Position numbers and translations under genes: made by a program. The notes under the pieces were generated by a model. That model made no database searches. It worked only from the letters and a program-made list of their open reading frames with translations, and was not told the DNA's origin. This document shows positions 71-61,551 of a DNA stretch of 64,000 bases, one piece after another; position 1 is the first letter of the stretch; every line of letters starts with the position of its first letter. This DNA is from Vogesella margarita. GTDB taxonomy: Bacteria; Pseudomonadota; Gammaproteobacteria; Burkholderiales; Chromobacteriaceae. The DNA lies in the NCBI RefSeq assembly GCF_028548475.1, contig NZ_JAQQLE010000015.1, positions 1-64,000 of the forward strand, given 5' to 3'.

Positions 71-294
71 TGGCACCTGGATGCCGTTGCGGGAGGGAGG
101 AGTCCATCTCATTGGGCTATGGTTTTGGAGACTGCCAACGTTGGCCGCAAGCCCTCCCCTGCACACACTGTTCTGCATCCCGCCGCTGGCGGCGCCTTTA
201 ATTGCCGCCACCGACCCCCATCTCATTCGCATGTGGCGGCCGTGGCCGCCTTTCCTTCCTTGCCCTTAGCGGCACACCGACAGGACTTCTGCTC

Positions 295-1179
295 ATGAGC
301 GAATCGCGCTACACCCCGCCCCGCGTCTGGACATGGGATCAGGCCAATGGCGGCCAGTTTGCCAACATCAACCGCCCCATCGCCGGGCCGACCCACGAGC
401 AGGCCTTGCCGGTGGGCGAGCATCCGCTGCAGCTGTATTCGCTGGCCACGCCCAATGGCGTGAAGGTGACCATCATGCTGGAGGAGCTGCTGGCGCTGGG
501 CCATCGCGGTGCCGAGTACGATGCATGGCTGATCCGCATCCACGAGGGCGAGCAGTTCGGCAGCGGCTTTGTCGCGCTGAACCCGAATTCCAAGATCCCG
601 GTGCTGCAGGATCGCAGCGGCGCCGAGCCGCAGCGGGTGTTCGAATCCGGCGCCATCCTGCTGTATCTGGCGGAGAAGTTCGGCGCGCTGTTGCCGCAGG
701 ATCTGGCGGCGCGCACCGAGTGTCTGTCGTGGCTGTTCTGGCAGATGGGCAGCGCACCGTTCCTGGGCGGCGGTTTCGGCCATTTCTACGTCTACGCGCC
801 GGAGAAGTTCGAATACGCGATCAACCGCTTCGCGATGGAAGCCAAGCGGCAGCTGGACGTGCTGGACCGCCGCCTGGCGGACAAGCGCTGGCTGGCGGGC
901 GACGAGTACAGCATTGCCGATATCGCGGTGTGGCCGTGGTATGGCGAGCTGGTGCGCGGCAACCTGTATGGCGCGGCGGAGTTCCTGCAGGTGCAGGAGT
1001 ACCCGCACGTGCAGCGCTGGGCAAACGAGATGGCGGCACGGCCGGCGGTACAGCGCGGGCGCATGGTCAACCGCCTGCGCGGCGAGCTATCGGAGCAGCT
1101 GCACGAGCGCCACGCCGCCAGCGATTTCGATACCCGCACCCAGGACAAGCTGCAGGCACAGGAAGCCACGCCGGCCTGA
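295..1179 (+). CDS. yghU: YghU-like glutathione S-transferase / disulfide reductase
   Basis: The 294-residue product resembles E. coli YghU (288 aa), a Nu-class GST-fold protein with glutathione-dependent disulfide reductase activity in the cytoplasm. A long N-terminal extension precedes a thioredoxin-like domain whose TPNGVKV (residues 52-58) matches the family's glutathione-binding loop. An all-helical GST C domain follows, including the DEYSIADIAVWPW segment. The ATG at 295 was chosen over an in-frame ATG at 202 because it fits family length and the upstream stretch looks non-coding. The gene is monocistronic and faces a LysR-type gene across a 24-bp palindrome. The native substrate is unknown. 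Confidence 0.85.
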   Translation: MSESRYTPPRVWTWDQANGGQFANINRPIAGPTHEQALPVGEHPLQLYSLATPNGVKVTIMLEELLALGHRGAEYDAWLIRIHEGEQFGSGFVALNPNSKIPVLQDRSGAEPQRVFESGAILLYLAEKFGALLPQDLAARTECLSWLFWQMGSAPFLGGGFGHFYVYAPEKFEYAINRFAMEAKRQLDVLDRRLADKRWLAGDEYSIADIAVWPWYGELVRGNLYGAAEFLQVQEYPHVQRWANEMAARPAVQRGRMVNRLRGELSEQLHERHAASDFDTRTQDKLQAQEATPA

Positions 1180-1200
1180 TCGCAGCCTGATCCCGCTACG

Positions 1201-1224
1201 CTTGCGGCCAACGTTGGCCGCAAG
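1201..1224. repeat. Perfect palindrome of the GTTGGCCGC repeat family
   Basis: A 24-bp perfect palindrome with core GCGGCCAACGTTGGCCGC lies between the convergent yghU and LysR genes. It contains two head-to-head copies of the dispersed 9-mer. Position and symmetry would let it act as a bidirectional terminator, though no T-run follows. Confidence 0.8.
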
Positions 1225-1238
1225 CACCCCCTCCCCGA

Positions 1239-2410: not shown

Positions 2411-4699
<2,289 letters not shown>

Positions 4700-4778: not shown

Positions 4779-4800
4779 TTGCGGCCAACGTTGGCCGCAA
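4779..4800. repeat. Palindromic copy of the GTTGGCCGC repeat
   Basis: A 22-bp perfect palindrome with the GCGGCCAACGTTGGCCGC core lies between maeB and the RlmN-like gene. It falls outside the canonical maeB terminator just upstream, so termination alone does not explain it. Confidence 0.8.
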
Positions 4801-4887: not shown

Positions 4888-5952
4888 ATGCGTATTCCGG
4901 ATTTCCACCAAGCCCTCGCCGATCTCGGCGCCCGTCCCTGCCATATCGGCCGCATCAATCGCGCCTGGCTGAAAGGCCAGCCGCTGGACGCCGGCACCCG
5001 CCACCAGAAGGGCGAGCACTACTTCCCGCTGGCGGTGCGTAACGGCCTGCCGCCGCTGGCGGCGCAGCTGGACGCGCTGGCGCGCATCGAATCGCAGCAC
5101 CCGGCTGAGGACGGCTCGCTGCGGCTCTTGGTTCGGCTTAACGACGGCCAGATGGTGGAAAGCGTGCTACTGCCGCGCGACGGGCTGTGCGTATCCAGCC
5201 AGGTCGGCTGCGCGGTGGGCTGCACCTTCTGCATGACCGGCAAGAGCGGGCTGCTGCGCCAGCTGGGCAGCGCCGAGATCGTGGCGCAGGTGGCGCTGGC
5301 GCGGCGCATCCGTCCGGTGAAGAAGGTGGTGTTCATGGGCATGGGCGAGCCGGCGCACAATATCGACAACGTGCTGGACGCCATCAACCTGCTGGGCACC
5401 GACGGCAATATCGGCCACAAGAATCTGGTGTTTTCCACCGTCGGTGATCCGCGCGTGTTCGAGCGCCTGCCACAGCTGCAGGTCAAGCCGGCGCTGGCGC
5501 TGTCGCTGCACACTACCGATGCCGGGCTGCGCGCGCAATTGCTGCCGCGCGCACCGCGTTATGAGCCGGCCGAGCTGGTGGCGCTGGGCGAGGACTACGC
5601 CCGTCGCGTCGGCTACCCGATCCAGTACCAGTGGACGCTGCTGGCCGGCATCAACGACACGCAGGCAGAAATGGACGCCGCCGTGCAGCTGCTGCGCGGC
5701 AAGTACGGCGTGCTCAACCTCATCCCGTACAACAGCGTGGAAGGCGATCACTACCAGCGCCCGTCCGCCGAGCGCATCCAGCAGTTCAAGCGTTACCTGC
5801 ACGATAACGGCGTGCTGACCAAGGTGCGCGACTCCGCCGGCCAGGACATCGACGGCGGTTGCGGCCAACTGCGCGCCCGCGCCGCCGACGTCATCGACCA
5901 CAGCCGACTGCTGCGCCGCCAGCAAAGCGCAGCGGGCAACGCCACAGACTGA
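4888..5952 (+). CDS. RlmN-family radical SAM RNA methyltransferase
   Basis: The 354-residue protein is a radical SAM enzyme of the RlmN/Cfr type, which methylates C2 or C8 of adenosine in 23S rRNA or tRNA. The [4Fe-4S] motif is C108-x3-C112-x2-C115. The two cysteines of the ping-pong methyl transfer are also present: C101 in LCVSSQVGC and C325 in GGCGQLRA. It is somewhat shorter than canonical RlmN (about 370-385 aa) and its cluster loop (CAVGCTFCMTGKSG) differs, so I read it as the betaproteobacterial RlmN paralogue rather than rlmN itself. The ATG at 4888 is preferred to a start 192 nt upstream, which would run through the repeat palindrome. Confidence 0.8.
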   Translation: MRIPDFHQALADLGARPCHIGRINRAWLKGQPLDAGTRHQKGEHYFPLAVRNGLPPLAAQLDALARIESQHPAEDGSLRLLVRLNDGQMVESVLLPRDGLCVSSQVGCAVGCTFCMTGKSGLLRQLGSAEIVAQVALARRIRPVKKVVFMGMGEPAHNIDNVLDAINLLGTDGNIGHKNLVFSTVGDPRVFERLPQLQVKPALALSLHTTDAGLRAQLLPRAPRYEPAELVALGEDYARRVGYPIQYQWTLLAGINDTQAEMDAAVQLLRGKYGVLNLIPYNSVEGDHYQRPSAERIQQFKRYLHDNGVLTKVRDSAGQDIDGGCGQLRARAADVIDHSRLLRRQQSAAGNATD

Positions 5953-7688: not shown

Positions 7689-7719
7689 TGCGGCCAACCT
7701 TGCCGCAAGGTTGGCCGCA
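7689..7719. terminator. Bidirectional hairpin built from two repeat copies
   Basis: TGCGGCCAACCTT and AAGGTTGGCCGCA form a 13-bp perfect stem around GCCGC, between the convergent nfsB and sbcC genes. Each arm is a copy of the dispersed 9-mer. A T-run is lacking, so termination is likely but not certain. Confidence 0.65.
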
Positions 7720-7724: not shown

Positions 7725-10700
7725 CTAGCCCACCACCTGCAGGCTGGATTGCCCCAACCCGCCGCCCTTCTTCACCACGATCTGCACCGCGATGCGCTCC
7801 TGCATGCCCGTCACGTGGCTGATCACGCCGATGGACTTGCCGCTGGCGTTGATGCTGTCCAGCGCGTCCAGCGCCACTTCCAGCGTGTCGCCGTCCAGTG
7901 TGCCGAAGCCTTCGTCGAGGAACAGCGAGTCGATGGAGGTCTTGTGGCTGACCAGGTCGGACAGCGCCAGCGCCAGCGCGAGGCTCACCAGAAAACTCTC
8001 GCCGCCAGACAGGGTGCGGGTGTCGCGCGCCGCGTCGGCCTGCCAGGTATCGACGATCGCCAGCTCCAGCTCGCCGCCGGCCTTGCGCTGCAGCAGGTAG
8101 CGGCCATGCAGGCGCGCCAGATGGCGGTTGGCGAGGTGCATCAGGTGGTCCAGCGTCAGCCCCTGCGCGAACTTGCGGTACTTGTCGCCCTCTTTCGAGC
8201 CGATCAGGCTGTTGAGCCGTTGCCAGATGTCGGCATCGGCGGCCTGTTGTTCGATCTGCAAGAACAGCGCCTGCTGCTTGTCGCGGCGCTGCGCGTCGTC
8301 GTGCAACAGCGCCTGCAGCGCACCCTGCTGGCCGGACAGCGCATGGCGCTGCGCGTCCAGTGTCACCAGCACCGCATCCAGCTCGGCCAGTGACAGCGGG
8401 CTGAGCGCCTGTTGCTGCAGCGATTTCAGCGCGGAGAGCGCGGTCTGCCGCACCGCCAGGCTGCGTTGCAACGCCTGCTCCAGCTGTTGCTGCCGCACCT
8501 GTAGCCGCTGGCGCTCCTCCTCCGGCAACAGCGCCTGCAAGAATGCTTCCCGATCGACAAACGGGCTGGCGGCCAGTGCGGCCAACCATGCCTGCTCGGT
8601 CTGCTCGTGCTGCCGCTGTTGCGCCTGCAGATCGGCCGCCAGCTGCGCCTGCTGGCCCTGCAGGCCGGCGATCTGCCGCGTCAGCACCTCCACCTGCTCG
8701 GCGCAGTGCACCAGTGCCTGCGCGTCGATCGTCAGCTCGTCGATGGCCAGCTCATCACCAGCCGGCTCGTGCCCGACCGCCAGCGCCGCCCAGCGCGCCT
8801 GCCACGTCTCTGCCACGCTGGCCGCCTGCTCGCAGCGCGCCTGCTGTTGCAACAGCGCAGCCTGTTGCTGCTGTTGCGCCTGCTGCTGCGCCTGCCAGTG
8901 TTGCCAGTCTTGCTGGCGCGCGGCCAGCCAGTCCGCCATGTCATCGTCGCGGCCCAGGCCGGTGGCGTCAAAACCGGCGGCGGCGATGGCCGCGGCCAAC
9001 GTTTGCCCGGCCTGTTCGATGGCTTGCGCGGTGGCGGCCAGCTGGCGCTGCAGCTCGGCGATGCCGTGCTGCAGGTGCGCGTGCTCCTGCTGCAACAGCG
9101 CGCCCTGCTGGGCGAGCTGCTGCAACTGCGCGGCCTGCGCGGCTTCCTGCCTCTGCGCTGCGGCCAACGTTTGCTCGGCGGCTTCGGCCTGCTGCAGGCC
9201 GTGTTTCAGGCCGGCCTCCTGCGCCTCGGCCGCCGCCAGATGCTGTTGCAGCATCACCGTCTGCTGCCAGTCGCCGTCATCCAGCGGCAGCTGGCCAGCC
9301 AGCTTGCGCCAGTCGGCCACGGCCTGCACGCAGGTCTCGCGCACCGTGTGCAGCGCCTGCTGCTGTTGCTCGCGCGTGGCGGTCAGCGCGGCCAGCCGGT
9401 TCCTGGCCTGGTTGCCAGTGTCCTCCAGCTGTTGCAGCGCGGCTTCCTTCTGCTGCAGCGCCTGCGCGGTGGAGGAGACATCGAGCGCCCGGTAGGCCTG
9501 TATCGCCGGATGCTGCTGCGAGCCGCACAGCGGGCAGGCCTCGCCCGGCTGCAAGGCGGCGCGGTGCGCGTCCAGGCTCTGGATGCGCTGCTCCTGCGCC
9601 AGCAGCTGGCGCTTGTCGGCCACCTGCTCTTTCAGCTGTTTGTAGTCGTGGCGCAGCGTGGCCAGCACGCCGTGCTGGGCTTCCAGCTGCGCATCGCTGT
9701 CGGCCAGCGCCTGTTCCAGTTGTGCCTGCTGTGCCGACTGCTGGCGCAGCTGCGCGGCGTGCTGCTGCAGTTGCCGCCACAGCTGCACCCTTTCCTGGCT
9801 GTGCAGCCATTGCGTCCGCAGCGCCGGCAGGCTGTGGCCCTGCAGCAGCGCCGCCAGCATGGTGGCGGCCTGTTCGCTGGCGGCGCTGGCCTGCTGCTGC
9901 GCGGCCTGTGCCGTTTGCAGCTGCTGTTGCTGCTGTGCCAGCCGGCTGGCAACTGCCGCCAGCGCCTCGGTCTGGCTGAGCGCCTGCGCCTGCTGCTGCC
10001 GCTGCGTGTCGTGCAGCTGGCGGATCTGCTGGCAGGTGCCGTGCCAGCCGCTGAGCTGTTCGCCCAGTGCGGCAAAGTGGTCGTGCCGGGCGAGCCAGTG
10101 CTGCAACTGCTGCTGCGCGGCCTGTTGCTGCTGCCACTGTTGCCGTTCGCGCTCGGCCAGGGCGGCGGCGATGCGGCGCGCCTGCCAGTGCGCGGCGACC
10201 GACTGCTGCCGACTGTCGGCAAGCTGCGTCTGCACCCTGTCCGTGGCGGCGCGGGTCTGTTGCAGCCGCTCCGCCGCCTGCTGCCACGCCTGCTGCAGCG
10301 GACGGATCGCCTCCGCCGGCGCGCTCTGTTGCAGGCGCTGCAAGTCTGGCCGCGCCTGTTCGATGGCCTGCTGCGCCGCCTGCTCGGCCAGGGCGGCGGC
10401 TTGCTCGGCCTGTTCGGCCTGGCCCAGCTCGTGTCGCCACTGGCGCAGTGCCTGCGTCTGCTGATGTTGCTGCTGCAATGCGGCCAACCGTGGCGTCAGC
10501 TCCGCCACCTGCTGCTGCATGGTCAGGCGCTCGGCTTCCGGCAACAGCTCCACGCCGTCGGCGCGCGCCTGCAGCTGTTCCAGCGCCTGGCGGGCGTCGC
10601 GCGCCCGTTCGAACACGCGCTGCGAGATCTGGCCGTAGATGTCGCTGCCGGTCAGCTCTTCCAGCAGCTCGGCACGCTCGTTGGCACTGGCATTGAGGAA

Positions 10701-11177: not shown

Positions 11178-12394
11178 GCCTCGCCCTCCTGCAGGCTGGC
11201 GACGATGTCGCGGTAGCGCGCCTGCAGCTGCGCGGCCAAGGTTTCGTCCAGCGTTTCCTGCTGCAGCCGCTTGTCGAACACGTCGAACGGCGTCAGTTCG
11301 TCCAGTGTCTCGCGCGCTTCTGCCTGTAGCGTGGCGGCGGCATTGCCGCGTTCGCGGCGGATGCGCAGCACCTCGACCGGAAGGTCGGTGGTGATGGCCT
11401 GGATGCGCGCCTGCAGATCGGACAGGTAGTCGTCACCCTGCACCAATACCTCCAGCCACACCGGCTGCGCGTCGCTGGCGAGCTTGGCGGCGTCAGCAAT
11501 GGCTGCGGCCAACGTTGCCAGATCCCCCTTCACCGACACCAGCTGCTGGAAGCGTGGCACCGGCAGCGGCGTCACCCCCAGCAGGCCGATGGCGTCGACA
11601 TCCACCAGCAGCACCTGTTTCTGCTGGCCGGCCTCGTCGAAGCTCAGCGGGATCGGTGAGCCGCTGTAGCGGACGTGTTCCAGTCCGCCCACCTGCTGCG
11701 GGCGGTGGATGTGGCCCAGCGCGATGTAGTCGGCCGGCGGAAAAGCGCTGGTCGGAAACGCCTCCAGCGCGCCGACATAGATTTCGCGCACCGATTCGCT
11801 GGCGCTGGCGCCGACGGTGGTGAGGTGGCCGGTGGCGATGATGGGCAGCGGCAGATTCAGCGCGTCGCGCCGGGCGCAGGCCAGCCGGTACAGCGCCTGG
11901 TAGTGCTGGTGGATGGCCTCCTGCAGCGTGAGCTGCTTTTCCTCGGCACTCTGTCCGGCCTGACTTTGCATCACATCGCGCGGGCGGATGAATGGGATCG
12001 CGCAGACGATGGCGCCGGGCGTGCCGTCGCGCTGCGGCAACACCAGCACCTGCTGCTCAAGGTCGGCCTCCACCGCCGGGATGACACTGGTGCCCAGGCA
12101 GCTCAGCAGCGGCCGGCTCTCGCCCAACGTGGCCACCGAGTCGTGGTTGCCACCCAGCACCAGCAGTACCACGTTGGCCGCATGCAGCGCCACCACCAGC
12201 CGGTTGTACAGCTCGCGCGCGTAGCTGGGCGGCGCGCCGGTATCGAAGATGTCGCCGGCGATGAGCACCGCGTCTACCGCCTGTTGCTGCACTTGCTGCA
12301 GCAGCCAGTCGATGAAGGCCTGGTGCTCGGCCTGGCGGGGCTTGCCCATGAAGTGCTGGCCGAGGTGCCAGTCGGAGGTGTGGAGGATGCGCAT
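11174..12394 (-). CDS. sbcD: Exonuclease SbcCD, nuclease subunit SbcD
   Basis: The 406-residue calcineurin-like phosphoesterase is the Mre11-type partner of SbcC. The N-terminus [15 protein letters not shown] carries metal ligands D8 and H10; [10 protein letters not shown] and GGNHDS supply further ligands. Length matches E. coli SbcD (400 aa). It is the first gene of the two-gene sbcDC operon, running into sbcC with a 4-nt overlap. The ATG at 12394 gives the canonical N-terminus. Confidence 0.95.
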
Positions 12395-12512: not shown

Positions 12513-13409
12513 TCAGGCGCCGGCCTTTGCCGCTTGCGGGGCAGCCACGACCGGCACTCGCTGCAGCCCCCACACGTTGGCCGCAACAATCAGTAGCACA
12601 CCCAGCAGCTGCCAGCCGTCCAGCAGCCGGCCATAGGCGAGATAATCCACCAGCAGCGCCACCACCGGGTAGCTGAACCCCAGCAGGCCGATCCAGTGGG
12701 TGGGCAGCTGGCGGAAGGCGGCGTACATGATGATGTACATCAGCGTGGTGTGTACCAGCCCCAGCGTGGCGAGATAACCCCAGTGGCTGCCGGCCACCCA
12801 CAGGCTGGCGTTGTCCAGCAGCGGCCACAGCAGCAGCACGCCGGTCAGCGTCTGCACGCAGGCAATGTGGGTGGGTGCCAGCGTTTTGGGCAGCTGCTTG
12901 CTGATCAGCGTCACCACCGCGTACAGCATGGCGGCGCCCAGCGCCAGCAGGATGCCCAGCAGCGCCCCGCCGCCGCCCTGCCCCGGCTGCACGATCAGCA
13001 GCATGCCGGCAAACGCCACCGCCACCGCGGCCAACTTGCGCAGCGTCAGCGCCTCGCCCAGCAGCAGCCGGCTCAGCAGCAGCAGCCAGAACGGCTGGGT
13101 GTGATACACCACGGTGGCGATGCCGATCGAGCTGTAGTGATAGGCGTTGAACAGCAGCAGCCAGTTGCCCACCAGCGCCACGCCACCGGCGATGCACCAC
13201 AGCAGGCTGCTACGGGTAAACGGCCACGTCTGCCACTGTCCGCGCCACCAGGCGTACAGCCCCAGCCCCAGCGAGCCCAGCACGCAGCGCACGAACACCA
13301 CGTTCCATACCGATTGGCCGGATTGCAGCACGAACCAGCCGATGGTGCCGGACAGCGCCATGGCGGCCAGCATCTGCCATACGCCGGTGCGTAAATTTTG
13401 TTGTGTCAT
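12513..13409 (-). CDS. EamA/DMT-family transporter
   Basis: The 298-residue, very hydrophobic protein has about ten predicted membrane helices in two repeated EamA halves, typical of drug/metabolite transporters of the RhaT/YdcZ type in the inner membrane. The ATG at 13409 follows AAGGAG at good spacing; a longer in-frame upstream start would run through the divergent promoter. It is divergent from an Lrp/AsnC-type gene, an arrangement often seen for amino acid exporters under feed-forward control. The actual substrate is not evident. Confidence 0.85.
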   Translation of the reverse strand: MTQQNLRTGVWQMLAAMALSGTIGWFVLQSGQSVWNVVFVRCVLGSLGLGLYAWWRGQWQTWPFTRSSLLWCIAGGVALVGNWLLLFNAYHYSSIGIATVVYHTQPFWLLLLSRLLLGEALTLRKLAAVAVAFAGMLLIVQPGQGGGGALLGILLALGAAMLYAVVTLISKQLPKTLAPTHIACVQTLTGVLLLWPLLDNASLWVAGSHWGYLATLGLVHTTLMYIIMYAAFRQLPTHWIGLLGFSYPVVALLVDYLAYGRLLDGWQLLGVLLIVAANVWGLQRVPVVAAPQAAKAGA

Positions 13410-13978: not shown

Positions 13979-14018
13979 CAGCAAAGCAGCCACGCAAGGT
14001 TGGCCGCAGACGTATTGC

Positions 14019-17273: not shown

Positions 17274-17510
17274 AACGGGCGCGCCAGCATCCCTCTCTGC
17301 ACCGGCTGGCATGCAGCAGCCGGCCTAACCCTCCCCCGGCCAGCGACAAAAGGTTGGCCGCAACGGCGCAACGGCCCGCCGCCACTGTCGCGCGGCGCAC
17401 GCTCTACACCCGGCACTGGCAAAAGCAGACCCATTCACTAAGATGCAAACACACCAGCTTCTGGTGACACGCTCCGCATTCCTCTCACCCACCAGCAAGA
17501 GGCACGCACT

Positions 17511-18333: not shown

Positions 18334-18361
18334 AAATGCGGCCAACCCTGGCCGCATTTTT
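18334..18361 (+). terminator. Terminator containing the GCGGCCAAC repeat
   Basis: AAATGCGGCC pairs with GGCCGCATTT around a 6-7 nt loop and is followed by more T, about 50 nt after the preceding stop. One arm is an exact copy of the 9-mer; the other is changed by one base (CTGGCCGC). Confidence 0.75.
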
Positions 18362-20601: not shown

Positions 20602-20621
20602 TGCGGCCAACGTTGGCCGCA
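20602..20621. repeat. Palindromic copy of the GTTGGCCGC repeat
   Basis: A 20-bp perfect palindrome with core GCGGCCAACGTTGGCCGC lies just after the GGDEF stop codon and before a separate T-tailed terminator. Confidence 0.8.
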
Positions 20622-27786: not shown

Positions 27787-27800
27787 TCATCGTCCACCGT

Positions 27801-41460: not shown

Positions 41461-41500
41461 CAAGGTTGGCCGCATCGCATCAAGCCTGCGGCCAACCTTG
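41461..41500. repeat. Inverted pair of repeat copies
   Basis: CAAGGTTGGCCGCA and TGCGGCCAACCTTG are perfect 14-bp arms around a 12-nt loop after the selU stop. A T-run is lacking. Confidence 0.75.
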
Positions 41501-44154: not shown

Positions 44155-44193
44155 GCGCGCAAGGTTGGCCGCAAGCGGCAGGCACGTACCATG

Positions 44194-45603: not shown

Positions 45604-45655
45604 GATTTCCTGCAAACGGATCGGTAAGGTTGGCCGCCGATTATAAGAGCGGCAA

Positions 45656-48191: not shown

Positions 48192-50159
48192 TCATTCCTG
48201 CGTCACCACGTCGGGCTGCCCCGGCAACGCCGCCAGTTCCGCCACCGTCAGCACCCGCACCCGGTACTCGCCGCCCTCCTCGTCCAGGCCGTGCATCTCG
48301 ATACGCTTCTGCGTTTTCAGCAGCCGCGCCAGGTAGGCGATGATGCCGTCGTCTATCACCTGCCCCGGCACCAGCACCGGAATGCCTGGCGGATAGGGCA
48401 CGATCTGGTCGCAGCAGACGCGGCCGCTCAGCTGCGGGTTGGCGCGCCCCTCGTCGTCGAACAACGGCAGGCGCTCGCCCGTTTCGTAGAAGGCATCGCG
48501 CGGCAGGCAAGCCAGGCGGGTAAAACCTGGGATCTCCGGCATCCGCCCCAGCAGCCGCGGTGGGCGCTGCTCCTTGGCCAGCCGCAGCAGCGCATCGAAC
48601 AGCCGCGACACCTTGCTGCGCGTGGTGCCCACCGTCAGCAGCAGGGTGATGGTATTGAAGGTGGACTTCTCGAACTGGATGTTGAAGCGCTCGAACAGTG
48701 CGCGCTGCAATTCGTCGGCGCTGTAGCCGGCTTGCGAGATGTCCACCGTCAGCTTGGTCGGGTCGAGGCGGACGCCGTCATCGCGCACGCTGTCCGGCAG
48801 CAGGTCGCCCAGCTCGAGCACGCGAAAGGCGCCGGTGGCGTCGATCTTCTGCCGCAATTCCTGCGCCAGCTTCAGCGCGCGGTCGAGCAGGCGAAAACCT
48901 TCGGTCACCGCCTGCTTGCGCGCCACGTCGAGGCTGGCGATCAGGTTGTACTGCGGGCTGGTGGAGGCGTGCATGTTGAAGTTTTCGCGGAACAGGTGCT
49001 CGTCGAAGGCCGGGTCGTTGACGTGGATCATGCTGGCCTGCGAGAACGCCGACAGCACCTTGTGCGTGCTTTGCGTGACGTAGTCCGCGCCGGATTCCAG
49101 CGCCGTTGGCCGCAACGCATGGTGGAAACGGGCGTGGCCGTACCAGGCCTCGTCGACCACCACCTTGATGCCGGCGGCGTGGGCGGCGGCGATGATGGGC
49201 GGCAGGTCGTAGCGTAGGCCGTCGTAGGTGCAGGAGGTCAGGATCAGCGCCCGTGCGTCGGGGTTGGCCGCAATGGCGTCGAAGATCACCGCCTTGGGCA
49301 CCGGCCCGAAGATGCCGTAGTGACGGTTGACCGAGGAATCCAAGTACACCGGCAGCGCGCCGGACAGGATCACGCCGTGGTGCACCGACTTGTGACAGTT
49401 GCGGTCCAGCAGCAGCTTGTCGCCCGGCGCCAGCAGCGTCTGGAAGATCACCTTGTTGGAGGTGGAGGTGCCGTTGGTGGCGAAATAGGTCTTGCGCGCG
49501 CCGAACGCCTTTGCGGCCAACGTTTGCGCGTCGGCGATCACCCCGGTCGGGTGCAGCAGCGAGTCCAGCATCGGCACCGACACCGACAGGTCGGCGCGCA
49601 GCATTTCCTCGCCGACGAAATCGTAGAAATCGCCCACCCACGGGCTGTTCTTGAACGAGTCGCCGCCGGAATGACCGGGGGTGTGCCACGAGTCCTTGGC
49701 CATGCTGACGTACAGCTTGAGGCGGTCGTAGAACGGCGTCGCCGACTTCTCCGCCAGCTCGGCGGCGAGGATGCGGAACCAGCCGTGAAAATCCTGCTCA
49801 TCGCGATAGAAATAGCCATCCACCGCGTGGCTGGCCAGCGTTTCCATCAGCACCTTCTCGTCGTCGTCCTGCAGCAGGATGTACAGCGACAGCTCCGGCC
49901 GCAGCGCGGAGATCTGGTTGGCCAGCTCCACCGCCGGCTGCGTCTGCCCCTGCTCCTTCATTCCCTTGTCCAGCAGCACGAACTGCAGCTCACCGTCGTG
50001 CGCCACCTGCCCCAGCGCGTCGCGGCTGCTGGCGACGCCGGCAAAACACAGACCCAGCGGATTGTGCAGCTTGGCGGCGGCCGCATTCAGTCCCGCCAGC
50101 ACGCTGGCCTGCCAGCGTGCGTCGTTGCTGACGATCAAGACCCGGCTTACTGGTGTCAT
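48192..50159 (-). CDS. Orn/Lys/Arg decarboxylase with receiver-like N domain
   Basis: The 655-residue PLP enzyme belongs to the fold-type I basic amino acid decarboxylases. The N-terminal 130 residues form the flavodoxin/receiver-like wing domain. The core has SWHTPGHSGGDSF, ATNGTSTSNK and PLP lysine K367 in TQSTHKVLSAFSQ. At 655 residues it is shorter than E. coli LdcC or SpeC (about 711-715), mainly at the C-terminus. Whether the substrate is lysine, ornithine or arginine cannot be told from sequence; nearby argF gives no proof. AGGAGG precedes the ATG. Confidence 0.88.
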   Translation of the reverse strand: MTPVSRVLIVSNDARWQASVLAGLNAAAAKLHNPLGLCFAGVASSRDALGQVAHDGELQFVLLDKGMKEQGQTQPAVELANQISALRPELSLYILLQDDDEKVLMETLASHAVDGYFYRDEQDFHGWFRILAAELAEKSATPFYDRLKLYVSMAKDSWHTPGHSGGDSFKNSPWVGDFYDFVGEEMLRADLSVSVPMLDSLLHPTGVIADAQTLAAKAFGARKTYFATNGTSTSNKVIFQTLLAPGDKLLLDRNCHKSVHHGVILSGALPVYLDSSVNRHYGIFGPVPKAVIFDAIAANPDARALILTSCTYDGLRYDLPPIIAAAHAAGIKVVVDEAWYGHARFHHALRPTALESGADYVTQSTHKVLSAFSQASMIHVNDPAFDEHLFRENFNMHASTSPQYNLIASLDVARKQAVTEGFRLLDRALKLAQELRQKIDATGAFRVLELGDLLPDSVRDDGVRLDPTKLTVDISQAGYSADELQRALFERFNIQFEKSTFNTITLLLTVGTTRSKVSRLFDALLRLAKEQRPPRLLGRMPEIPGFTRLACLPRDAFYETGERLPLFDDEGRANPQLSGRVCCDQIVPYPPGIPVLVPGQVIDDGIIAYLARLLKTQKRIEMHGLDEEGGEYRVRVLTVAELAALPGQPDVVTQE

Positions 50160-50292: not shown

Positions 50293-52425
50293 ATGCTGAC
50301 CGACGCCGAAAAAGATTCCCTGCGCGAGTACTATCGCGCCATTGCCGACAACCTGCCGGGCTTCCGCCCGCGCGCCGCGCAACGCCAGATGCTGGCCACC
50401 GTCGCCAACGCCTTCGGCAACACCCTGAGCAAGGCCGAGGACAGCGACGAGGCGCCGGAGCGCAACGGCGAGAGCATCGCCGTGATAGAAGGCCCGACCG
50501 GCGTCGGCAAGAGTCTGGCCTACCTGCTGGCCGGCGGCGTGATGGCCAAGTCGCGCGGCAAGAAGCTGGTGGTCACCAGCGCCACCATCGCGCTGCAGGA
50601 ACAGCTGGTCAACCGCGACCTGCCGTTCGCCATCGAAAAAAGCGGCTTGCCGGCCACCTTCGCGCTGGCCAAGGGCCGCGGTCGTTACCTGTGCCCGTAC
50701 CGCCTGTACCAGCTCACCGCCGACAACGCGCAGGGCGAGCTGATCGCGCAGGACCCGGCACTGGCGCTGTGGGAGCGCAAGCCGGAACAGGGCGAGATCG
50801 AGGCGCTGCGCCAGCTAGCCGACGCGTTTTACTATCGCAAGTGGAATGGCGACCGCGACAGCTGGCCGGAAATGATCAACGACGAACTGTGGCGCCGCGT
50901 CACCAACGACCGCCACGGCTGCCTGAAAGCCGGCTGCCCCAACCGTCCCGAGTGCCCGTTCTACCTGGCGCGCGAAACGCTGGAAACCGTCGACATCGTG
51001 GTCGCCAACCACGACCTGATGCTGGCCGACGTGGCGATGGGCGGCGGCGTGATCCTGCCGGCGCCGGAGAACAGCTTCTACTGCATCGACGAGGCGCATC
51101 ACCTGGCCAAGAAGGCGGTCAACCAGTTCGCCGCCGAACACAGCCTCGCGCAGGCGATGGCGTGGCTGGACAAGGTCACGCCGCTGGCCACCCGCGTCGA
51201 AAGCCTGATCGACAAGCCGGAGCTGGCCAGCAACGCCTGCGAGGCGGCGGCGGCCTGCATGGAAAGCCTCACCGAGTGGCTGTGGCTGCTGCAGACCGAG
51301 CCGTCGCTGGAAGCCAGCAGCGACAATCTGGAGCCGTCGTGGCTGGTCGAGGACGGCGTGCTGCCGGAGTCGATGAAGATCCCTGCGGCCAACATGGCGC
51401 TGTCGGCGCGCATGCTGTACAAAAACCTGACCGGCATGAGCGACGGCCTGGCCCAGCTGCGCAAGGACAAGCAGCAGGAGACGCTGCTGATCGACAAGAC
51501 CAGCTCCGATGTCGGCTTCATGGTCGGCAAGTGCGAACAGCTGATGGCGCTGTGGGATCTGTTCGAGAAGGAGCCGGAAGAAAACGCGCCGCCGATCGCC
51601 AAGTGGGTGACCCGCCGCGCCGACGGCAAGGGCGACTACCTGTTCTCCGCCTCGCCGGTGAGCGCCGCCGGCAGCCTCGCCGCCACGCTGTGGCGCCGTG
51701 CCGCCGGTGCGGTGCTGACCTCGGCCACGCTGCGCTCGCTGGGCAGCTTCGAGTTGCTGCTGTCTCAGACCGGCCTCAAGTGGCTGGAGCAGGTACAGAC
51801 GGTGGCGCTGGATTCGCCGTTCAACTTCAGCGAACAGGGCGAGCTGTACGTGCCGCCGCTGCTCAGCACCCCGAAAGACCCGGCCGGCCACACCCGCGAA
51901 ATCATCGACTGGCTGCCCAAGCTGGTCGACCTCAACGAGGCGGTCGGCACGCTGGTGCTGTTCACCTCGCGCAAGCAGATGCAGGAGGTGGCGGAAGGGC
52001 TTGCGGCCAACCTGCGCGAACGGGTGCAGATGCAGGGCGAGCTACCCAAGGCGGTGCTGCTGCAGAACCACCGCGACGCGCTGCAGGCCGGCCTTGCCAG
52101 CGTACTGTTCGGGCTGGACTCGTTCTCCGAGGGGCTGGACCTGCCGGGCGAAGCCTGCGTGCACGTGATCATCGCCAAGCTGCCGTTCGCGATGCCGGAC
52201 GACCCGGTCGGCCGCACCCTTTCACGCTGGATCGAGAAACGCGGCGGCAACCCGTTCGTGGAGCTGACGGTGCCGGAGGCGTCGATCAAGCTGATCCAGG
52301 CCGTCGGCCGCCTGATCCGCACCGAACAGGACTATGGCCGCGTCACCATTCTGGACACCCGCATCGTGCGCCAGAACTATGGGAAACGCATGCTGGCCGC
52401 ACTGCCACCATTCCGCCGGATTTGA
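50293..52425 (+). CDS. dinG: ATP-dependent DNA helicase DinG
   Basis: The 710-residue XPD-like superfamily 2 helicase unwinds D-loops, R-loops and replication conflicts. Walker A GPTGVGKS is at 67-74, the 4Fe-4S cysteines are C134, C210, C215 and C221, and YCIDEAHHL is the DEAH box. The C-terminal motif AVGRLIRTEQDYG is motif VI. The ATG at 50293 gives the family N-terminus; a TACAAT -10-like hexamer ends only 6 nt before it, so a leaderless message is possible but has no good -35. Confidence 0.94.
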   Translation: MLTDAEKDSLREYYRAIADNLPGFRPRAAQRQMLATVANAFGNTLSKAEDSDEAPERNGESIAVIEGPTGVGKSLAYLLAGGVMAKSRGKKLVVTSATIALQEQLVNRDLPFAIEKSGLPATFALAKGRGRYLCPYRLYQLTADNAQGELIAQDPALALWERKPEQGEIEALRQLADAFYYRKWNGDRDSWPEMINDELWRRVTNDRHGCLKAGCPNRPECPFYLARETLETVDIVVANHDLMLADVAMGGGVILPAPENSFYCIDEAHHLAKKAVNQFAAEHSLAQAMAWLDKVTPLATRVESLIDKPELASNACEAAAACMESLTEWLWLLQTEPSLEASSDNLEPSWLVEDGVLPESMKIPAANMALSARMLYKNLTGMSDGLAQLRKDKQQETLLIDKTSSDVGFMVGKCEQLMALWDLFEKEPEENAPPIAKWVTRRADGKGDYLFSASPVSAAGSLAATLWRRAAGAVLTSATLRSLGSFELLLSQTGLKWLEQVQTVALDSPFNFSEQGELYVPPLLSTPKDPAGHTREIIDWLPKLVDLNEAVGTLVLFTSRKQMQEVAEGLAANLRERVQMQGELPKAVLLQNHRDALQAGLASVLFGLDSFSEGLDLPGEACVHVIIAKLPFAMPDDPVGRTLSRWIEKRGGNPFVELTVPEASIKLIQAVGRLIRTEQDYGRVTILDTRIVRQNYGKRMLAALPPFRRI

Positions 52426-53845: not shown

Positions 53846-53993
53846 GCGTGAATATGCACACTCCGGCCAAAAAGCGGCCAACACCCCTTTTCTTCCGCCA
53901 CTAAGCAGGCACAATGCCCTGCTACCGGCGCGCGCTGAGCCCGCCATCTTCCTCATTTTCCAAGCTGGCGTCTTGAATGTGCTGACCCTCGTC

Positions 53994-55432
53994 ATGGCCA
54001 TCGATCTGGCCGAAGCAGTCGAATTTGCCGACCTGATGCGCGCGAGCGGCGAACAGGCAGGCGAGCACGGTGCGCGCCAGACCCTTTCCGCTGCCGAGAC
54101 CCTGTTGCGCGAGCTGCACGCCGCATTGAGCGGCAGCAACACCCCCCTTCTGCCGGCACAACGCGCCCAGGCCGACCGTCTGCTGCCGACATTGCTGGAA
54201 CTGGCCCGCCGCTTGGACACCTCGCAGCCGCAGCAGGCGCTGTTCGCCATGGTGCTGGCCCAGGCGCTGGCCGCCGGCCGACTGCACCAGGCAAAACAGG
54301 CCTTGGCCGCAACGGCTTTTTCAGCAGCAACAAAGGCAAGATCGAGGCCTGCGCCGACTGTCTGGCCTGCGCCATCGAGGTGTTACGCACCCATGCCCTC
54401 GGCTACAGCAACCTGCCATCCGGCTTCTGGCTCGATTGCCACCGCCTGTACCGCTACGTGCAGGATGGCGGCTGGGATGGCAAAACCGCCACCGGCAAGA
54501 ACGACACCCTCGGCGCGCTGTACCGCCAGCTGCTGCTGCTCGGCGTCGCCGCTGGCAACCGGCTGGACCCGGCGCGCATCGAGTGCCTGGTACGACTGGT
54601 GCGGGAAGGCGGCAAGCACGCGCAGCTGCTACCACTGGCATCGGCCGTGGTCGACAACGGTTTCATCGTCAACCTGGAGCGTGATGCCGCCCCGCGACAC
54701 AGCAGCATCCGTGGCAAACCGGGGGCGGAACATGCCCAGCTGCTACTGGGCGTACACCGCGTGCTGCAGAGCTGGGAAGAAAAAAGCCAGGCCACCGCGC
54801 AGCTGGATGCCGCGGCACAGCTGGAGCAGCAGCTGATCCTGAAACTGCGCCAAGAGCTGGTCTACCCGCCACAGCGGCGCTACCTGCGCCTGCACAGCAA
54901 GCACGAAGAGTTCGTACAGCTGCATGTCACCCTCGATCACTGCTGGCAAGCCCTGCAAACCACCGAAGACGACAAGTCGCCACCTGCGGCCAACATGCGG
55001 GTGTGCAATATGAGTGCCACTGGCTACCTGCTGCGCGGCCAACTGCCGCTCATGCCGCTGCGCAGCGGCGAGCTGGTGCTGATCCGCCGCCCCGGACGTG
55101 ATCATTTCCTTGGCGTGGTGCGCTGGATCAACCGCTACAGCCCGTGCGGCGATACCGAGTGTGGTATCGAGATCATCGGCAAGAACCCCGAGGCCACCCG
55201 GGTAACGCCGGTGGTGACCCACGCCACCGAGCCGGCGCAAAACGCGATCCGGCTGGCCGCCAATGCCCGCCTCAACCCGCAGGACGTGCTGGTGATGTAC
55301 GGCAAGCCGTACCAGGCGCTGCGCCAATTCGAGGTCCACCAATCGCAGGGCGTGCTGCCGGTCAAGGCTACCCGCCTGCTGCTGCAGACCGCCTACTACC
55401 AGCTGATCAACGTCCGTGCCGAGCGCCACTGA
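53994..55432 (+). pseudogene. Frameshifted gene for a PilZ-like protein
   Basis: Two open frames join into one protein only if a base is restored near 54309-54312. The first frame (MAIDLAEAVEFADLMRASGE...) runs to LHQAKQALAA, then loses coding character. The second supplies NGFFSSNKGKIEACADCL and continues to 55432. The C-terminal 130 residues hold VCNMSATGYLLRG, SGELVLIRRPG and GVVRWINRY, which look like a PilZ fold; RRYLR upstream gives an RxxxR, though farther away than usual. About 478 residues in total. The shift falls in TTGGCCGCAACGG, a one-base variant of the dispersed repeat. The start is uncertain (ATG 53994 or GTG 53979, neither with a good ribosome site). Inactivating mutation or sequence error cannot be separated here. 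Confidence 0.65.
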
Positions 55433-57315: not shown

Positions 57316-58404
57316 TTAGCAGGCCTCGCCCACCGCGGGCCCAGCCAGCGCATCCTTGGGCATGCTCAGCTGCTGCACCGCCGCGCGCGCCTGCGCGAAG
57401 CTGTCGGTGGCCAGCAGTGCCTGCCAGTCCGCCTGCGCACCCCGCCCGGCCATCTTCTGCAGCCGTGCGGCCAACCCTGGCAGTTGTGGATCGGCCAGTT
57501 CGGCCAGCAACTGGTCGGCCAGATCCGGGCGATTGCACACCAGCGCCATGTCACAGCCGGCGTCGAAGGCGGCACGGGCACGCTCGACGATATTGCCGAC
57601 ACCGGCGGCGCCTTCCATGGTCAGGTCGTCGGAGAAGATCACGCCGTCAAAGCCCAGCTCGCCGCGCAGGATGTCCTGCAACCAAACCTTGGAAAAGCCG
57701 GCCGGTTGCGCGTCCACCGCCGGATACACCACGTGCGCGGGCATCACAGAGGCCATGCCGGCCGCCGCCAGCTGCGCAAACGGCTGCAGGTCGTCGGCCT
57801 GCAATTGTGCCAGCGTTCGCTCATCGACCGGGATCACGTGATGGCTGTCGCCCTCGACAAAACCGTGACCGGGGAAGTGCTTGCCGCAGGTGGCCATGCC
57901 GCCACCGGCCAAGCCCTGCTGCAGCGCCAGCGCCAGCGCGGACACCGCTTGCGGATCGCGGTGGAAGCTGCGGTTGCCGATCACCGCGCACTGCCCCCAA
58001 TCCAGATCCAGCACCGGTGTGAAGCTGAGGTCGATGCCGCAGGCACGCAGCTCGGCGGCCAGCACGTAGCCGACCTGGCGCGTCAGTTCCGCCGCCTTGT
58101 CGGCGTTGACATCCCACGCCTCGCCCAGCACCTGCATCGGCGGCAGGCGGGTGAAGCCATCAATGAAGCGCTGCACGCGGCCGCCTTCGTGATCGACGGC
58201 GATCAGCAACTGCGGCTCGCGCAGAGCGCGAATCTCGGCGGTCAGCGCCTGCAGTTGTTCGATGTTCTGGAAATTGCGGCGGAACAGGATCACGCCGCCG
58301 ACCAGCGGGTGGGACAGTCGCTCGCGCTCGGCATCGGTCAGGGTAAAGACCGCGACGTCGATCATCACCGGGCCACGCGGCAGTTGCAGGGGAAGCTTGT
58401 TCAT
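57316..58404 (-). CDS. nagZ: Beta-N-acetylhexosaminidase NagZ
   Basis: The 362-residue GH3 enzyme removes GlcNAc from muropeptides in cytoplasmic cell-wall recycling. KHFPGHG and GDSHH contain the catalytic-loop histidine and DDLTMEGA the nucleophilic aspartate. Length matches E. coli NagZ (341 aa) with a slightly longer tail. The ATG at 58404 lies 13 nt after the acpS stop, with no clear ribosome site, so coupling to acpS is likely. It is the last gene of the lepA-nagZ cluster. Confidence 0.94.
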   Translation of the reverse strand: MNKLPLQLPRGPVMIDVAVFTLTDAERERLSHPLVGGVILFRRNFQNIEQLQALTAEIRALREPQLLIAVDHEGGRVQRFIDGFTRLPPMQVLGEAWDVNADKAAELTRQVGYVLAAELRACGIDLSFTPVLDLDWGQCAVIGNRSFHRDPQAVSALALALQQGLAGGGMATCGKHFPGHGFVEGDSHHVIPVDERTLAQLQADDLQPFAQLAAAGMASVMPAHVVYPAVDAQPAGFSKVWLQDILRGELGFDGVIFSDDLTMEGAAGVGNIVERARAAFDAGCDMALVCNRPDLADQLLAELADPQLPGLAARLQKMAGRGAQADWQALLATDSFAQARAAVQQLSMPKDALAGPAVGEAC

Positions 58405-58417: not shown

Positions 58418-58813
58418 TCAAGGGTTGGCCGCAAGCGCGCTCTCGCAGACCACGAAAGCGAACGCGTGTTGTTGTTCATCGCTGATCGACAAGTGTACCG
58501 CGCAGATGCCGCGCTGGTGCAGGAAGTCCTGCAGCGGATCGGAAAAGGCAAACATCGGCTTGCCCAGCGCATCGTGCACCACGGCAATCGCGGTCAGCAG
58601 CACCGGCGCACGCACGCCGGTACCCAGCGCCTTGCCCAGCGCCTCCTTGGCGGCGAAGCGCTTGGCGAGAAAGCGCGCCGGCTGTTTCGCCAGCGCCAGC
58701 TCAGCCCGCTCAGATTCGGCCAGCAAACGTTGGCCGCAACGCAGACCGTGACGTGCCAGCAACGCGTCGAAGCGCTCGATGCGCGCCATGTCGGTGCCGA
58801 TGCCGTAAATCAT
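58418..58813 (-). CDS. acpS: Holo-[acyl-carrier-protein] synthase
   Basis: The 131-residue enzyme transfers phosphopantetheine from CoA to acyl carrier protein. [15 protein letters not shown] carries the metal-binding Asp and [16 protein letters not shown] the Glu and Lys of the active site. Length fits (E. coli 126 aa). It overlaps the pdxJ stop by one base (TAATG), as in E. coli where pdxJ-acpS are also coupled. A repeat copy sits at its 3' end. Confidence 0.95.
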
Positions 58814-59547: not shown

Positions 59548-59572
59548 TCTGTATCTCCGGCAAGGCGCGCCG

Positions 59573-60301
59573 TCAGTCGGACAGCGCGTAGAGGGTAGTC
59601 AGCAGTTCGCGCGAAGCCAGCGGCTCCGGCCCCAGCAACTCGTCCAGCAACAGCCGCAACAGCAGGCGCGCTTCGCGCCGGGTCTGCGGCTGCTCGAAAT
59701 CGGCGGCGGCCAGCGCCAGCAAGGTGGCGCCACTGACGTTGGCCGTGCCGCGCGGTGCCTGCTCGCTGTCGGTCGGCTCTGGCGCGGCGCCGAAGCGGCA
59801 CAGGTAGCGTGCCTGCGGCACGATGGGCTGCGCCAGGTGATCCTGTGTCAGCGCTGGCGCATAACCCAGCTCTTCCAGTAGCGCCAGCTCAAAGCGGCGC
59901 AGCACGGTGGCAGTCAGCGCATGGTCGACCAGGCTGCGCACCGCGCGATCGTACAGCTTGAACAGCGATGGCGACGGGTCGTCGCGGGCCGCCAGGCGCA
60001 GCACCAGTTCGTTGAGATAGAAACCGGTCACCAGCCGCGCACCGGCAAACTGCGGCACGCCGCCGCGCCAGTCGGCGCTGTGCAGGGTGCGCAATTCGCC
60101 CTTGCCGAACCAGGCCAGCTGCAAGGGCTGGAACGGCAGCAACAGCCCGCGCAGGTCGGAACGCGGCCGCCGTGCGCCGCGCGCCACCAGCGTGAAACGC
60201 CCGTGGTCGCGGGTCAGCACTTCCACCAGCAGGCTGGTCTCGCGGTAGGGCTGGGTGTGCAGCACGTAGGCCGGCTGGCGATCAACCTTGCCCTGCTGCA
60301 T
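59573..60301 (-). CDS. recO: DNA repair protein RecO
   Basis: The 242-residue protein loads RecA with RecR and anneals DNA. It has an N-terminal OB fold ([30 protein letters not shown]) and a helical domain ([17 protein letters not shown]). It lacks the zinc-finger cysteines of some RecO. The start MQQGK at 60301 lies inside the end of the upstream monooxygenase-like gene (20-nt overlap), so coupling is likely; a longer upstream frame was rejected. Confidence 0.92.
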
Positions 60302-60638
60302 CCGTCCCTGCCTGCGGCTTGCGCCAGCCGTGTACGCGGCCAACCTCTGCCACGCGCAGCTCGAAGCCTGCATACCACTGCGCAAAGCCCTGCCGCTGCG
60401 CCAGCTGGTGCTCGCTATTGGCCTTCCACGCCGCGATGGCCGCTTCGCTGTCCCAGTACGACACGGTGATGCCGAAACCGTCGGCATCGCGCACGCTTTC
60501 CACACCGAGAAAACCGGGCTGCCCGGCCGCCAGCTCGACCATGCGCTGACCCATGTCGGCGTAGCCCTCATCGACAACGCTGCGCTGGCTGCTGAAAATC
60601 ACCGCCCAGTACGGCGGCTCGGGAGTGTTCGCAAACAT
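60282..60638 (-). CDS. Antibiotic biosynthesis monooxygenase (ABM)-domain protein
   Basis: The 118-residue protein has a ferredoxin-like ABM dimer fold: WAVIFSSQRS, MVELAAGQPGFLGVESVRD, ITVSYWDSEAAIAAWK. Such proteins are monooxygenases or haem-handling enzymes of varied role, often unassigned. It is inserted between era and recO, which are neighbours in many genomes, and overlaps recO by 20 nt. Confidence 0.85.
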   Translation of the reverse strand: MFANTPEPPYWAVIFSSQRSVVDEGYADMGQRMVELAAGQPGFLGVESVRDADGFGITVSYWDSEAAIAAWKANSEHQLAQRQGFAQWYAGFELRVAEVGRVHGWRKPQAGTDAAGQG

Positions 60639-60660
60639 GCGGCCAACCTTTTGTTCAGGC

Positions 60661-61551
60661 TCAGTTGAGGCCGAAATCGCGCAGGAAGCGTACGTCGTCG
60701 GCCCAGCCGGACTTCACCTTCACCCACACCTCGAGGAACACCTTGCAGTCGAACAGCTGCTCCATATCGAGACGGGCTTCGGTGGAAATCTTTTTCAGTT
60801 TCTCGCCGCCACGGCCGATCACGATCGGCTTCTGCCCTTCCTTGTCCACCAAGATGGCGACGTGGATGCGGAACATGTGGCCATCGACCTCGAAAGCCTC
60901 GACCTCCACGTTCATCTCGTACGGCAGCTCTTCACCCAGGTAGCGGAACAGCTTCTCGCGCACGATCTCGGCAGCGAGGAAACGCTGGCTCTTGTCAGTG
61001 ATCATGTCTTCCGGGTACAGCGGCATCGAGACTGGCAGGTGCGGGCGCACCTTGTCCAGCAGCTCGCCCAGACGCTGGCCGTGCTTGGCGCTGACCACTT
61101 CGGCGTCGGTGAACTCGAACTCGGCGCGGACCTGGTCGATGAACATGCTCAGCATCAGGCTGTCCTTGGCCTTGTCGACCTTGTTCAGCACCAGGATCAC
61201 CGGCGTATTCTTCGGCAGCAGCGCCATCACTTCGCGGTCGGCGTTGGACAGACGCATCGCTTCCAGCACGAACAGCACGCAATCGACGCTACCCAGGGTG
61301 TCCTTCACCGACTGGTTCAGCGTGGCATTGAGCGCGCCCTTGTGGAAGGTCTGGAAGCCCGGGGTATCGACGAACACGAACTGCGCGTTCGGCTCGGTAT
61401 GGATGCCGTTGACGCGGTGGCGCGTGGTCTGCGCCTTTTTCGAGGTAATGCTGATTTTCTGGCCGATGAGATGGTTCATCAGCGTGGATTTGCCCACATT
61501 GGGGCGGCCAACGATGGCGACAAAGCCACAGCGGAAATCGGTATCGGTCAT
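60661..61551 (-). CDS. era: GTPase Era
   Basis: The 296-residue GTPase aids 16S rRNA maturation and 30S assembly. G1 is GRPNVGKS (15-22), G3 DTPGF, G4 NKVD, and a C-terminal KH domain includes PIVIGRGGEKLKKISTEAR. Length matches E. coli Era (301 aa). It follows rnc with a 3-nt gap, the conserved rnc-era pairing. Confidence 0.97.
   Translation of the reverse strand: MTDTDFRCGFVAIVGRPNVGKSTLMNHLIGQKISITSKKAQTTRHRVNGIHTEPNAQFVFVDTPGFQTFHKGALNATLNQSVKDTLGSVDCVLFVLEAMRLSNADREVMALLPKNTPVILVLNKVDKAKDSLMLSMFIDQVRAEFEFTDAEVVSAKHGQRLGELLDKVRPHLPVSMPLYPEDMITDKSQRFLAAEIVREKLFRYLGEELPYEMNVEVEAFEVDGHMFRIHVAILVDKEGQKPIVIGRGGEKLKKISTEARLDMEQLFDCKVFLEVWVKVKSGWADDVRFLRDFGLN

Follow-up and report, generated by a model that had tools for sequence, protein, structure and literature searches.

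The 64,000-nucleotide stretch of Vogesella margarita contig NZ_JAQQLE010000015.1 analyzed here (hereafter the window) carries a short word, GTTGGCCGC, in dozens of copies, which raises the question of whether this bacterium has a DNA uptake sequence (DUS) of its own, as the first-pass annotation of the window had proposed. To our knowledge, uptake sequences are established only in the Neisseriaceae and the Pasteurellaceae. Eight DUS dialects have been described, all containing CTG, and, as far as the available part of that paper goes, five genomes of Laribacter, Lutiella, Pseudogulbenkiania and Chromobacterium showed no obvious DUS and Vogesella was not mentioned (Frye et al., 2013; PMC3630211). 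In the accessible portion of a 2025 account, the number of dialects still stands at eight, with the CTG core (PMC12061091). We examined the window, its genome (G000; 3.33 Mb in 26 contigs) and a family set of 61 genomes, comprising 13 of Vogesella and 48 in nine other genera labelled g2–g10. With a probability of about 0.87, the longer word CAAGGTTGGCCGCA is the DUS of Vogesella, while further genera of the family use the dialects GTTGGCCG-AA and GTTGGCCG-AG, read by a ComP-like pilin.

The abundance of the word is far beyond expectation. The first-pass annotation had estimated about fifty copies in the window where base composition predicts one or two; the excess is borne out, while the estimate was too low, as we counted 61 exact copies between positions 140 and 61512 against a mean of 2.44 and a maximum of 7 in 100 dinucleotide shuffles. 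The window's genome contains 2,499 copies, of which 1,188 are in forward and 1,311 in reverse orientation, roughly 50 times the 49 copies of the same word read backward, and the motif thus withstood the genome-wide count. For closer analysis, we used a 444-kb sample of this genome, made up of the window and 19 stretches of 20 kb, which holds 356 copies at a mean spacing of 1,177 bp, with 12–21 in every 20-kb stretch. The comparison with a Markov model that had been suggested likewise favors the motif, the 10-mer GTTGGCCGCA occurring 286 times in the sample where an order-5 model predicts 13.7. Other words, such as CAGCGCCAG (193 vs. 86), showed a milder excess under the same model. The eight largest motif-free gaps listed are all 7.5 kb or shorter, and gap size did not point to foreign DNA, as the genes in the three gaps inspected, judged by eye from their first residues, looked mostly ordinary. 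All 13 Vogesella genomes carry 2,312–3,490 copies of GTTGGCCGC, against 57–313 in the remaining 48 family genomes.

The repeated unit is longer than the 9-mer. Intergenic copies in the sample follow the consensus C-A-A-G/C-GTTGGCCGC-A-(A), with A at positions -3 and -2 (87%), G or C at -1 (69% and 29%, respectively), and A after the core (91%); the coding copies have the same flank preferences in weaker form. The full consensus is about CAAGGTTGGCCGCA, 13–14 bp long, and the logo has no conserved unit beyond that. The C at -1 fits the head-to-head palindromes TTGCGGCCAAC-GTTGGCCGCAA. The 13-mer AAGGTTGGCCGCA occurs in the sample 117 times exactly, 129 times with one mismatch and 86 times with two, compared with 0, 0 and 9 for the reversed 13-mer. 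That the motif lacks CTG, as the annotation had remarked, is plain from its letters.

Neither codon usage nor base composition explains the excess. We assigned coding sequences (CDS) with a simple codon-usage gene caller made for this analysis, which places 32 of the 61 window copies in CDS and 29 between genes. The 444-kb sample is 86% coding and holds 213 coding and 143 intergenic copies, so that the intergenic density is 4.3 times the coding one. Synonymous-codon shuffling within each of 395 genes left 33.2 ± 5.0 copies (44 in the largest of 100 runs) in place of the 213, which rules out codon usage as the cause, and an order-1 simulation of the intergenic DNA gave 1.8 copies (5 in the largest of 60 runs) in place of the 143, which rules out base composition. 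Two control words stayed closer to their codon-shuffled expectations (GCTGGCCGC, 114 vs. 107.5; CGCCGGTTG, 2 vs. 6.3). A further control word, GCGCTGGCC, also lay above the shuffles (134 vs. 82). Coding copies are translated as AAN (100), xLAA (47), VGR (43) and others, in agreement with the Ala-Ala-Asn and Leu-Ala-Ala readings first noticed in the window. Codon bias without an intergenic excess, raised at the outset as an argument against the motif, therefore fails for coding and intergenic DNA alike.

The copies are distributed evenly over the strands, 172 on the plus and 184 on the minus strand in the sample and 29 and 32 in the window, confirming that both orientations are used. Their density is 6.6 per kb in convergent gaps, 2.5 in tandem and 0.7 in divergent ones, and of the 137 copies in intergenic regions assigned to one of these classes, 53 are in convergent gaps. 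Intergenic inverted pairs no more than 40 bp apart number 40, namely 28 head-to-head and 12 tail-to-tail, several of them followed by T runs; coding DNA adds two inverted pairs and one direct pair. The inverted repeats with T runs that had been described between genes were recovered in the window as eight pairs, all intergenic by the gene caller, some with T/A-run flanks (e.g., 39302–39325).

The crowding in convergent gaps and the hairpins with T runs would suit a terminator-linked or repetitive extragenic palindromic (REP)-like repeat that spreads selfishly or for regulation with no role in uptake. We regard this as extremely improbable, as 213 of the 356 copies are coding and lie in both orientations and in several frames, many more coding copies exist than codon shuffling leaves, and the logo contains no longer repeat unit. 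The palindrome GGCC within the core, the palindromes of 18 bp and longer formed by head-to-head copies, and the presence of copies throughout all sampled stretches could also be reconciled with a site recognized by a DNA methyltransferase or by some other chromosomal DNA-binding protein, whether of the nucleoid, of segregation or of a Chi-like system, and kept for the sake of the chromosome and not of uptake. On each replichore, motifs of the Chi or KOPS kind favor one strand, whereas the strands are balanced here, counted as totals rather than per replichore. Moreover, the motif holds information over about 13 bp, its single copies are not palindromic, and neither the concentration in convergent gaps nor the dialect shift alongside ComP loop residues described below would be expected from such a site, which we consider very unlikely.

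The copies are also conserved above background in relatives. Of the window copies that align, G049 has 43 of 51 unchanged (61% for random aligned 9-mers), V. indigofera G052 has 31 of 38 (62%) and G060 has 5 of 9 (25%), with one-sided binomial P values of 0.0003, 0.008 and 0.049 in three tests that are not mutually independent. Window words with one mismatch are kept less (24 of 54, 26 of 46 and 2 of 13, respectively), and at 4, 3 and 2 of them the relative holds a perfect copy.

Word counts made de novo in 40–60 kb per genus revealed the same core with different ends in g5, g6, g7, g9 and g10. Genome-wide, GTTGGCCGA occurs 889–2,363 times in nine genomes of six other genera: 2,120 and 1,780 copies in g5, 889 (G036) and 2,363 in g6, 1,291 in g7, 2,010 in g9, 1,220 and 1,017 in g10, and 1,453 in G010, the only one of ten g2 genomes in which it is abundant. 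A third g10 genome, G047 (84% complete), is weak with 321 copies, and the next highest counts are 308 and 252 in g8, where the reversed controls give 94 and 87. The two bases after GTTGGCCG define the dialects. In the window's genome, 286 of 380 cores are followed by CA, with a looser CA ending in the Vogesella genomes G060 (30 of 67) and G054 (18 of 39), in which C mostly follows the core. AG prevails in g5 (65 of 88, and 48 of 59 in the second g5 genome). AA is found in G010 (25 of 30), g7 (42 of 49), g9 (42 of 50), g6 (60 of 81; only 9 of 20 in G036) and g10 (45 of 55; 19 of 35 in G048). Stretches from G003 (g2), G017 (g3), g4 and G039 (g8) have 5–8 core copies per 40–60 kb against 2.3–2.9 predicted by composition and no preferred ending. 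Two other g8 stretches, L226 and L227 (G043 and G040; Paludibacterium group), hold 18 core copies in 40 kb where 2.5 are predicted, without a dialect end. C is preferred at -2 in both, and the Paludibacterium group may possibly carry another, weaker word. The degenerate word GTTGGCCGMR reaches 206 copies in C. haemolyticum and 245 in P. purpuratum, against 100 and 115 for the reversed controls. Across 399 genomes of the order Neisseriales, in which the Chromobacteriaceae stand, 8 of the 13 from Vogesella's family carry 1,304–3,107 copies of this word, and none of the 386 genomes outside the family exceeds 223.

The annotation had advised a search for comP and other competence genes, and the window's genome indeed encodes a ComP-like pilin, ComEC, DprA and type IV pilus genes. 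The ComP candidate is a 144-residue pilin (G000:C1:11036-11467; L039:9537-9971) that scores 48.9 bits against Pfam ComP_DUS (PF16732; cut-off 27.3). It is missed by PF07963 alone at E 0.001 and found with PF16732. Its best PDB match is 2nba (E 4e-10), identified as the ComP of N. subflava in the available parts of PMC4906244 and PMC12061091. When a profile is built from 15 sequences of the family, its top three PDB matches are the three solved ComPs, 2nba, 2m3k and 5hz7 (E 8e-20 to 3e-18, with 1e-18 between). The candidate shares with the Neisseria proteins a C-terminal cysteine pair and, with 2nba, a loop after the long helix that ends in WPxLP. For the ComP-like pilin of V. indigofera, the AlphaFold model predicted from the sequence alone was too poor for fold searches (mean pLDDT 60.5).

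The genomic context of the candidate differs from that of Neisseria ComP, as it is encoded directly behind, and overlapping with, a FimT/GspH-like pilin gene, the pair lying at L039:9001-9971. The FimT-like product barely passes its Pfam cut-off of 21, with 21.2 bits. Past a 129-residue gene, the opposite strand encodes AroB, AroK, a secretin, PilP, PilO, PilN and PilM; by its context, the secretin is PilQ. The FimT-like, ComP-like, 129-residue and AroB genes adjoin in each of the 13 Vogesella genomes. Identity between the two clades is 72–75% for AroB, but 34–38% for the FimT-like and 38–52% for the ComP-like pilin; because both pilins diverge far faster than the neighboring AroB, the FimT-like one may also take part in recognizing DNA. 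ComEC is found above the cut-off in 57 of the 61 family genomes, 11 of them among the 13 of Vogesella, and DprA in all 13 Vogesella genomes. In the motif-rich draft G045, ComEC matches as two separate pieces (L300, G045:C3:1541296-1543079), possibly reflecting a broken gene or a draft assembly error.

The ComP-like pilin varies together with the motif and its dialect. We compared it in 50 of the 61 genomes, omitting 11 that either lacked a match or had matches that were weaker or not retrieved; by eye, three or more of the 27 motif-poor rows (G014, G016 and G033) resemble other pilins, and the weak G047 was counted as motif-bearing with the dialect of its genus. Of the motif-bearing genomes, 21 of 23 have an N-x-D-x-G loop joining strands 1 and 2, as do none of the 27 motif-poor ones, and the same counts hold for a lysine at position 66. 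The turn before the first C-terminal cysteine reads TG[IVM] in 13 of 13 CA genomes, QDGN in 8 of 8 AA genomes and ESGN in both AG genomes; QDG occurs in the same turn in 22 of the 27 motif-poor rows as well. Within g2, the sole motif-bearing genome has N-x-D-x-G and none of the eight motif-poor ones compared does. A ComEC tree built from 19 genomes implies four gains or losses of the motif, two of which are forced by well-supported branches.

Several observations weigh against an uptake sequence read by this pilin. The covariation was noted post hoc and is confounded by descent; the well-supported branches provide only two independent contrasts, both as expected but by far too few to reach significance. 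G045 and G060 have the motif without N-x-D-x-G. ComP-like pilins and ComEC are also present in motif-poor genera, so these genes alone do not predict the motif. A second ComP_DUS protein, encoded in a minor-pilin cluster, scores higher on Pfam among the matches listed (70.8 vs. 48.9 bits). Its PDB matches up to E = 1 include no solved ComP, and we prefer the 144-residue pilin because it alone of the two matches the solved ComPs. In their soluble part, the candidates have two cysteines in 21 of 23 genomes and three in the other two, the last two being 9–10 residues apart, and not the four of Neisseria ComP. They accordingly lack the DD region, as defined by two disulfides and four cysteines in the accessible sections of PMC4906244. 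The likely reader would be a ComP relative without that region.

Prophages, found in 3 of the 13 Vogesella genomes by a terminase search (one match is weak), are only partly depleted of the motif, which also counts against such a reading. Phage families match 9 of 10 proteins scanned in the prophage spans, and the three spans together hold 30 copies against 49.3 expected. Singly, they hold 10, 11 and 9 copies against 14.7, 19.9 and 14.7 at genome rates (P = 0.13, 0.022 and 0.079), while the remainder of the prophage-bearing 180 kb has 91 copies against 88.1 expected. Furthermore, two motif-rich Vogesella drafts, G057 and G058 (98% and 88% complete), have no ComEC above the cut-off, owing to either assembly gaps or a loss of competence. 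Together with the lower copy numbers in some AA-dialect genomes, such as G036 and G047, the missing ComEC could suggest that the motif is a relict, an ancestral uptake sequence decaying in lineages that are no longer competent. However, exact 13-mers are nearly as common as those with one mismatch in the window's genome, the copies are conserved above background, and most Vogesella genomes retain ComEC and all retain DprA, which makes a relict highly improbable.

The reading of the motif as an uptake sequence can also be set against the known systems. It shares with the Neisseriaceae DUS the thousands of copies, a motif of 10–12 bp, dialects differing in one or two bases, terminator-linked inverted pairs and a ComP homologue, as far as these are described in the available part of PMC3630211. 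It differs in lacking CTG, nor can it be regarded as a point variant of any described dialect. Since the known dialects all contain CTG, we classify the motif as a DUS by its behavior, outside the Neisseriaceae CTG dialects. The known DUS words that we counted, GCCGTCTGAA and GGCTACCTGAA, occur twice and not at all in the 444-kb sample, and are rejected as its identity. GGCAGCCTG, a partial king-type DUS word counted without a control, occurs 30 times. A likeness of GGCCG to part of AG-DUS was judged to lie within chance for two short words and was dropped.

The two uptake signal sequence (USS) types of the Pasteurellaceae, AAGTGCGGT and ACAAGCGGT, are short, hyperabundant and found in both orientations in coding and intergenic DNA, all of which the Vogesella motif shares. 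The sequences are unrelated, the USS words occurring 2 and 5 times, respectively, in the 444-kb sample. A minor pilin has reportedly been predicted as the USS receptor of the Pasteurellaceae (PMC12616744). Among the open-access literature matches listed, none concerned an uptake sequence for Vogesella or its family, and relative to the descriptions in the literature searched, the core has not been described before.

The uptake pathway of Neisseria, with its pilus, PilQ, ComEC, DprA and RecA, serves as the model for the mechanism that we propose. Type IV pili would carry the ComP-like minor pilin, whose gene sits behind the FimT-like gene and faces the aroB-aroK-pilQPONM cluster in Vogesella, and this pilin would bind the motif on free double-stranded DNA. 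Retraction of the pilus would draw the DNA through the PilQ secretin, ComEC would move one strand over the inner membrane, and DprA and RecA would recombine it. Copies would spread under favored uptake of tagged DNA and persist where the local code tolerates them. The preference for tagged DNA would thereby account for thousands of copies in both orientations and several frames and for their re-use in terminator-like hairpins. The DUS-like behavior originally suggested is supported by the abundance, the coding and intergenic contexts, the two orientations, the inverted pairs and the competence and pilus genes; as for the uptake step, we infer that ComP binds the motif, that uptake is biased toward it and that the cells are naturally competent.

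The copies in the window are collected in Table 1. The window also holds a flavodiiron-type protein with a fused rubredoxin domain (14734–16122) and a kdp potassium-transport region with KdpD and KdpA (25138–32387), both of them ordinary.

Table 1. Copies of the 9-mer in the window, with inverted pairs listed before single copies.
Feature	Position	Strand	Context
Head-to-head pair, 18-bp core palindrome	1204..1221		intergenic, convergent genes
Head-to-head pair, 18-bp core palindrome	4781..4798		intergenic
Head-to-head inverted pair, 11-bp spacer	7690..7718		intergenic, convergent genes
Head-to-head pair, 18-bp core palindrome	20603..20620		intergenic, convergent genes
Head-to-head inverted pair, 8-bp spacer	23255..23280		intergenic, convergent genes
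Tail-to-tail inverted pair (hairpin), 7-bp spacer	27809..27833		intergenic
Tail-to-tail inverted pair (hairpin) then T run, terminator-like	39302..39325		intergenic, convergent genes
Tail-to-tail inverted pair (hairpin), 14-bp spacer	41465..41496		intergenic
Single copy	140..148	+	upstream of first called CDS
Single copy	4493..4501	-	in CDS
Single copy	5861..5869	-	in CDS
Single copy	8578..8586	-	in CDS
Single copy	8992..9000	-	in CDS
Single copy	9160..9168	-	in CDS
Single copy	10480..10488	-	in CDS
Single copy	11505..11513	-	in CDS
Single copy	12173..12181	+	in CDS
Single copy	12576..12584	+	in CDS
Single copy	13027..13035	-	in CDS
Single copy	13999..14007	+	intergenic
Single copy	17353..17361	+	intergenic
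Single copy	18338..18346	-	intergenic
Single copy	21892..21900	+	in CDS
Single copy	22693..22701	+	intergenic
Single copy	24424..24432	+	intergenic
Single copy	25225..25233	+	in CDS
Single copy	26542..26550	+	in CDS
Single copy	29538..29546	-	in CDS
Single copy	29802..29810	+	in CDS
Single copy	30990..30998	+	in CDS
Single copy	31185..31193	-	in CDS
Single copy	32540..32548	-	intergenic
Single copy	33246..33254	+	intergenic
Single copy	37492..37500	+	in CDS
Single copy	37877..37885	-	intergenic
Single copy	42305..42313	-	in CDS
Single copy	44164..44172	+	intergenic
Single copy	45629..45637	+	intergenic
Single copy	47130..47138	+	in CDS
Single copy	49105..49113	+	in CDS
Single copy	49263..49271	+	in CDS
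Single copy	49513..49521	-	in CDS
Single copy	51385..51393	-	in CDS
Single copy	52003..52011	-	in CDS
Single copy	53874..53882	-	intergenic
Single copy	54986..54994	-	in CDS
Single copy	55035..55043	-	in CDS
Single copy	57467..57475	-	in CDS
Single copy	58424..58432	+	in CDS
Single copy	58729..58737	+	in CDS
Single copy	60336..60344	-	in CDS
Single copy	60639..60647	-	intergenic
Single copy	61504..61512	-	in CDS

A further set of uptake sequences thus appears in environmental relatives of Neisseria, where the five genomes considered in 2013 showed none, according to the available part of PMC3630211. With even chances of being right, we propose that the family has an uptake language of its own, with the core GTTGGCCG lacking CTG, three or more dialects that differ in their last two bases at the 3' end (CA, AA and AG) and a ComP without the DD region. 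In this proposal, the N-x-D-x-G loop would mark recognition of the motif, the turn before the first C-terminal cysteine would track the dialect, and remodelling a single pilin could be enough to change bacterial uptake codes, their core included. The natural dialects would offer paired receptor and motif variants for studying the long-standing question of DNA recognition by a pilin, and V. indigofera is pigmented and genetically tractable, as stated in the accessible part of PMC12826045. If the ComP-like pilin is the reader, the CTG core would no longer be a general requirement of ComP-based recognition.

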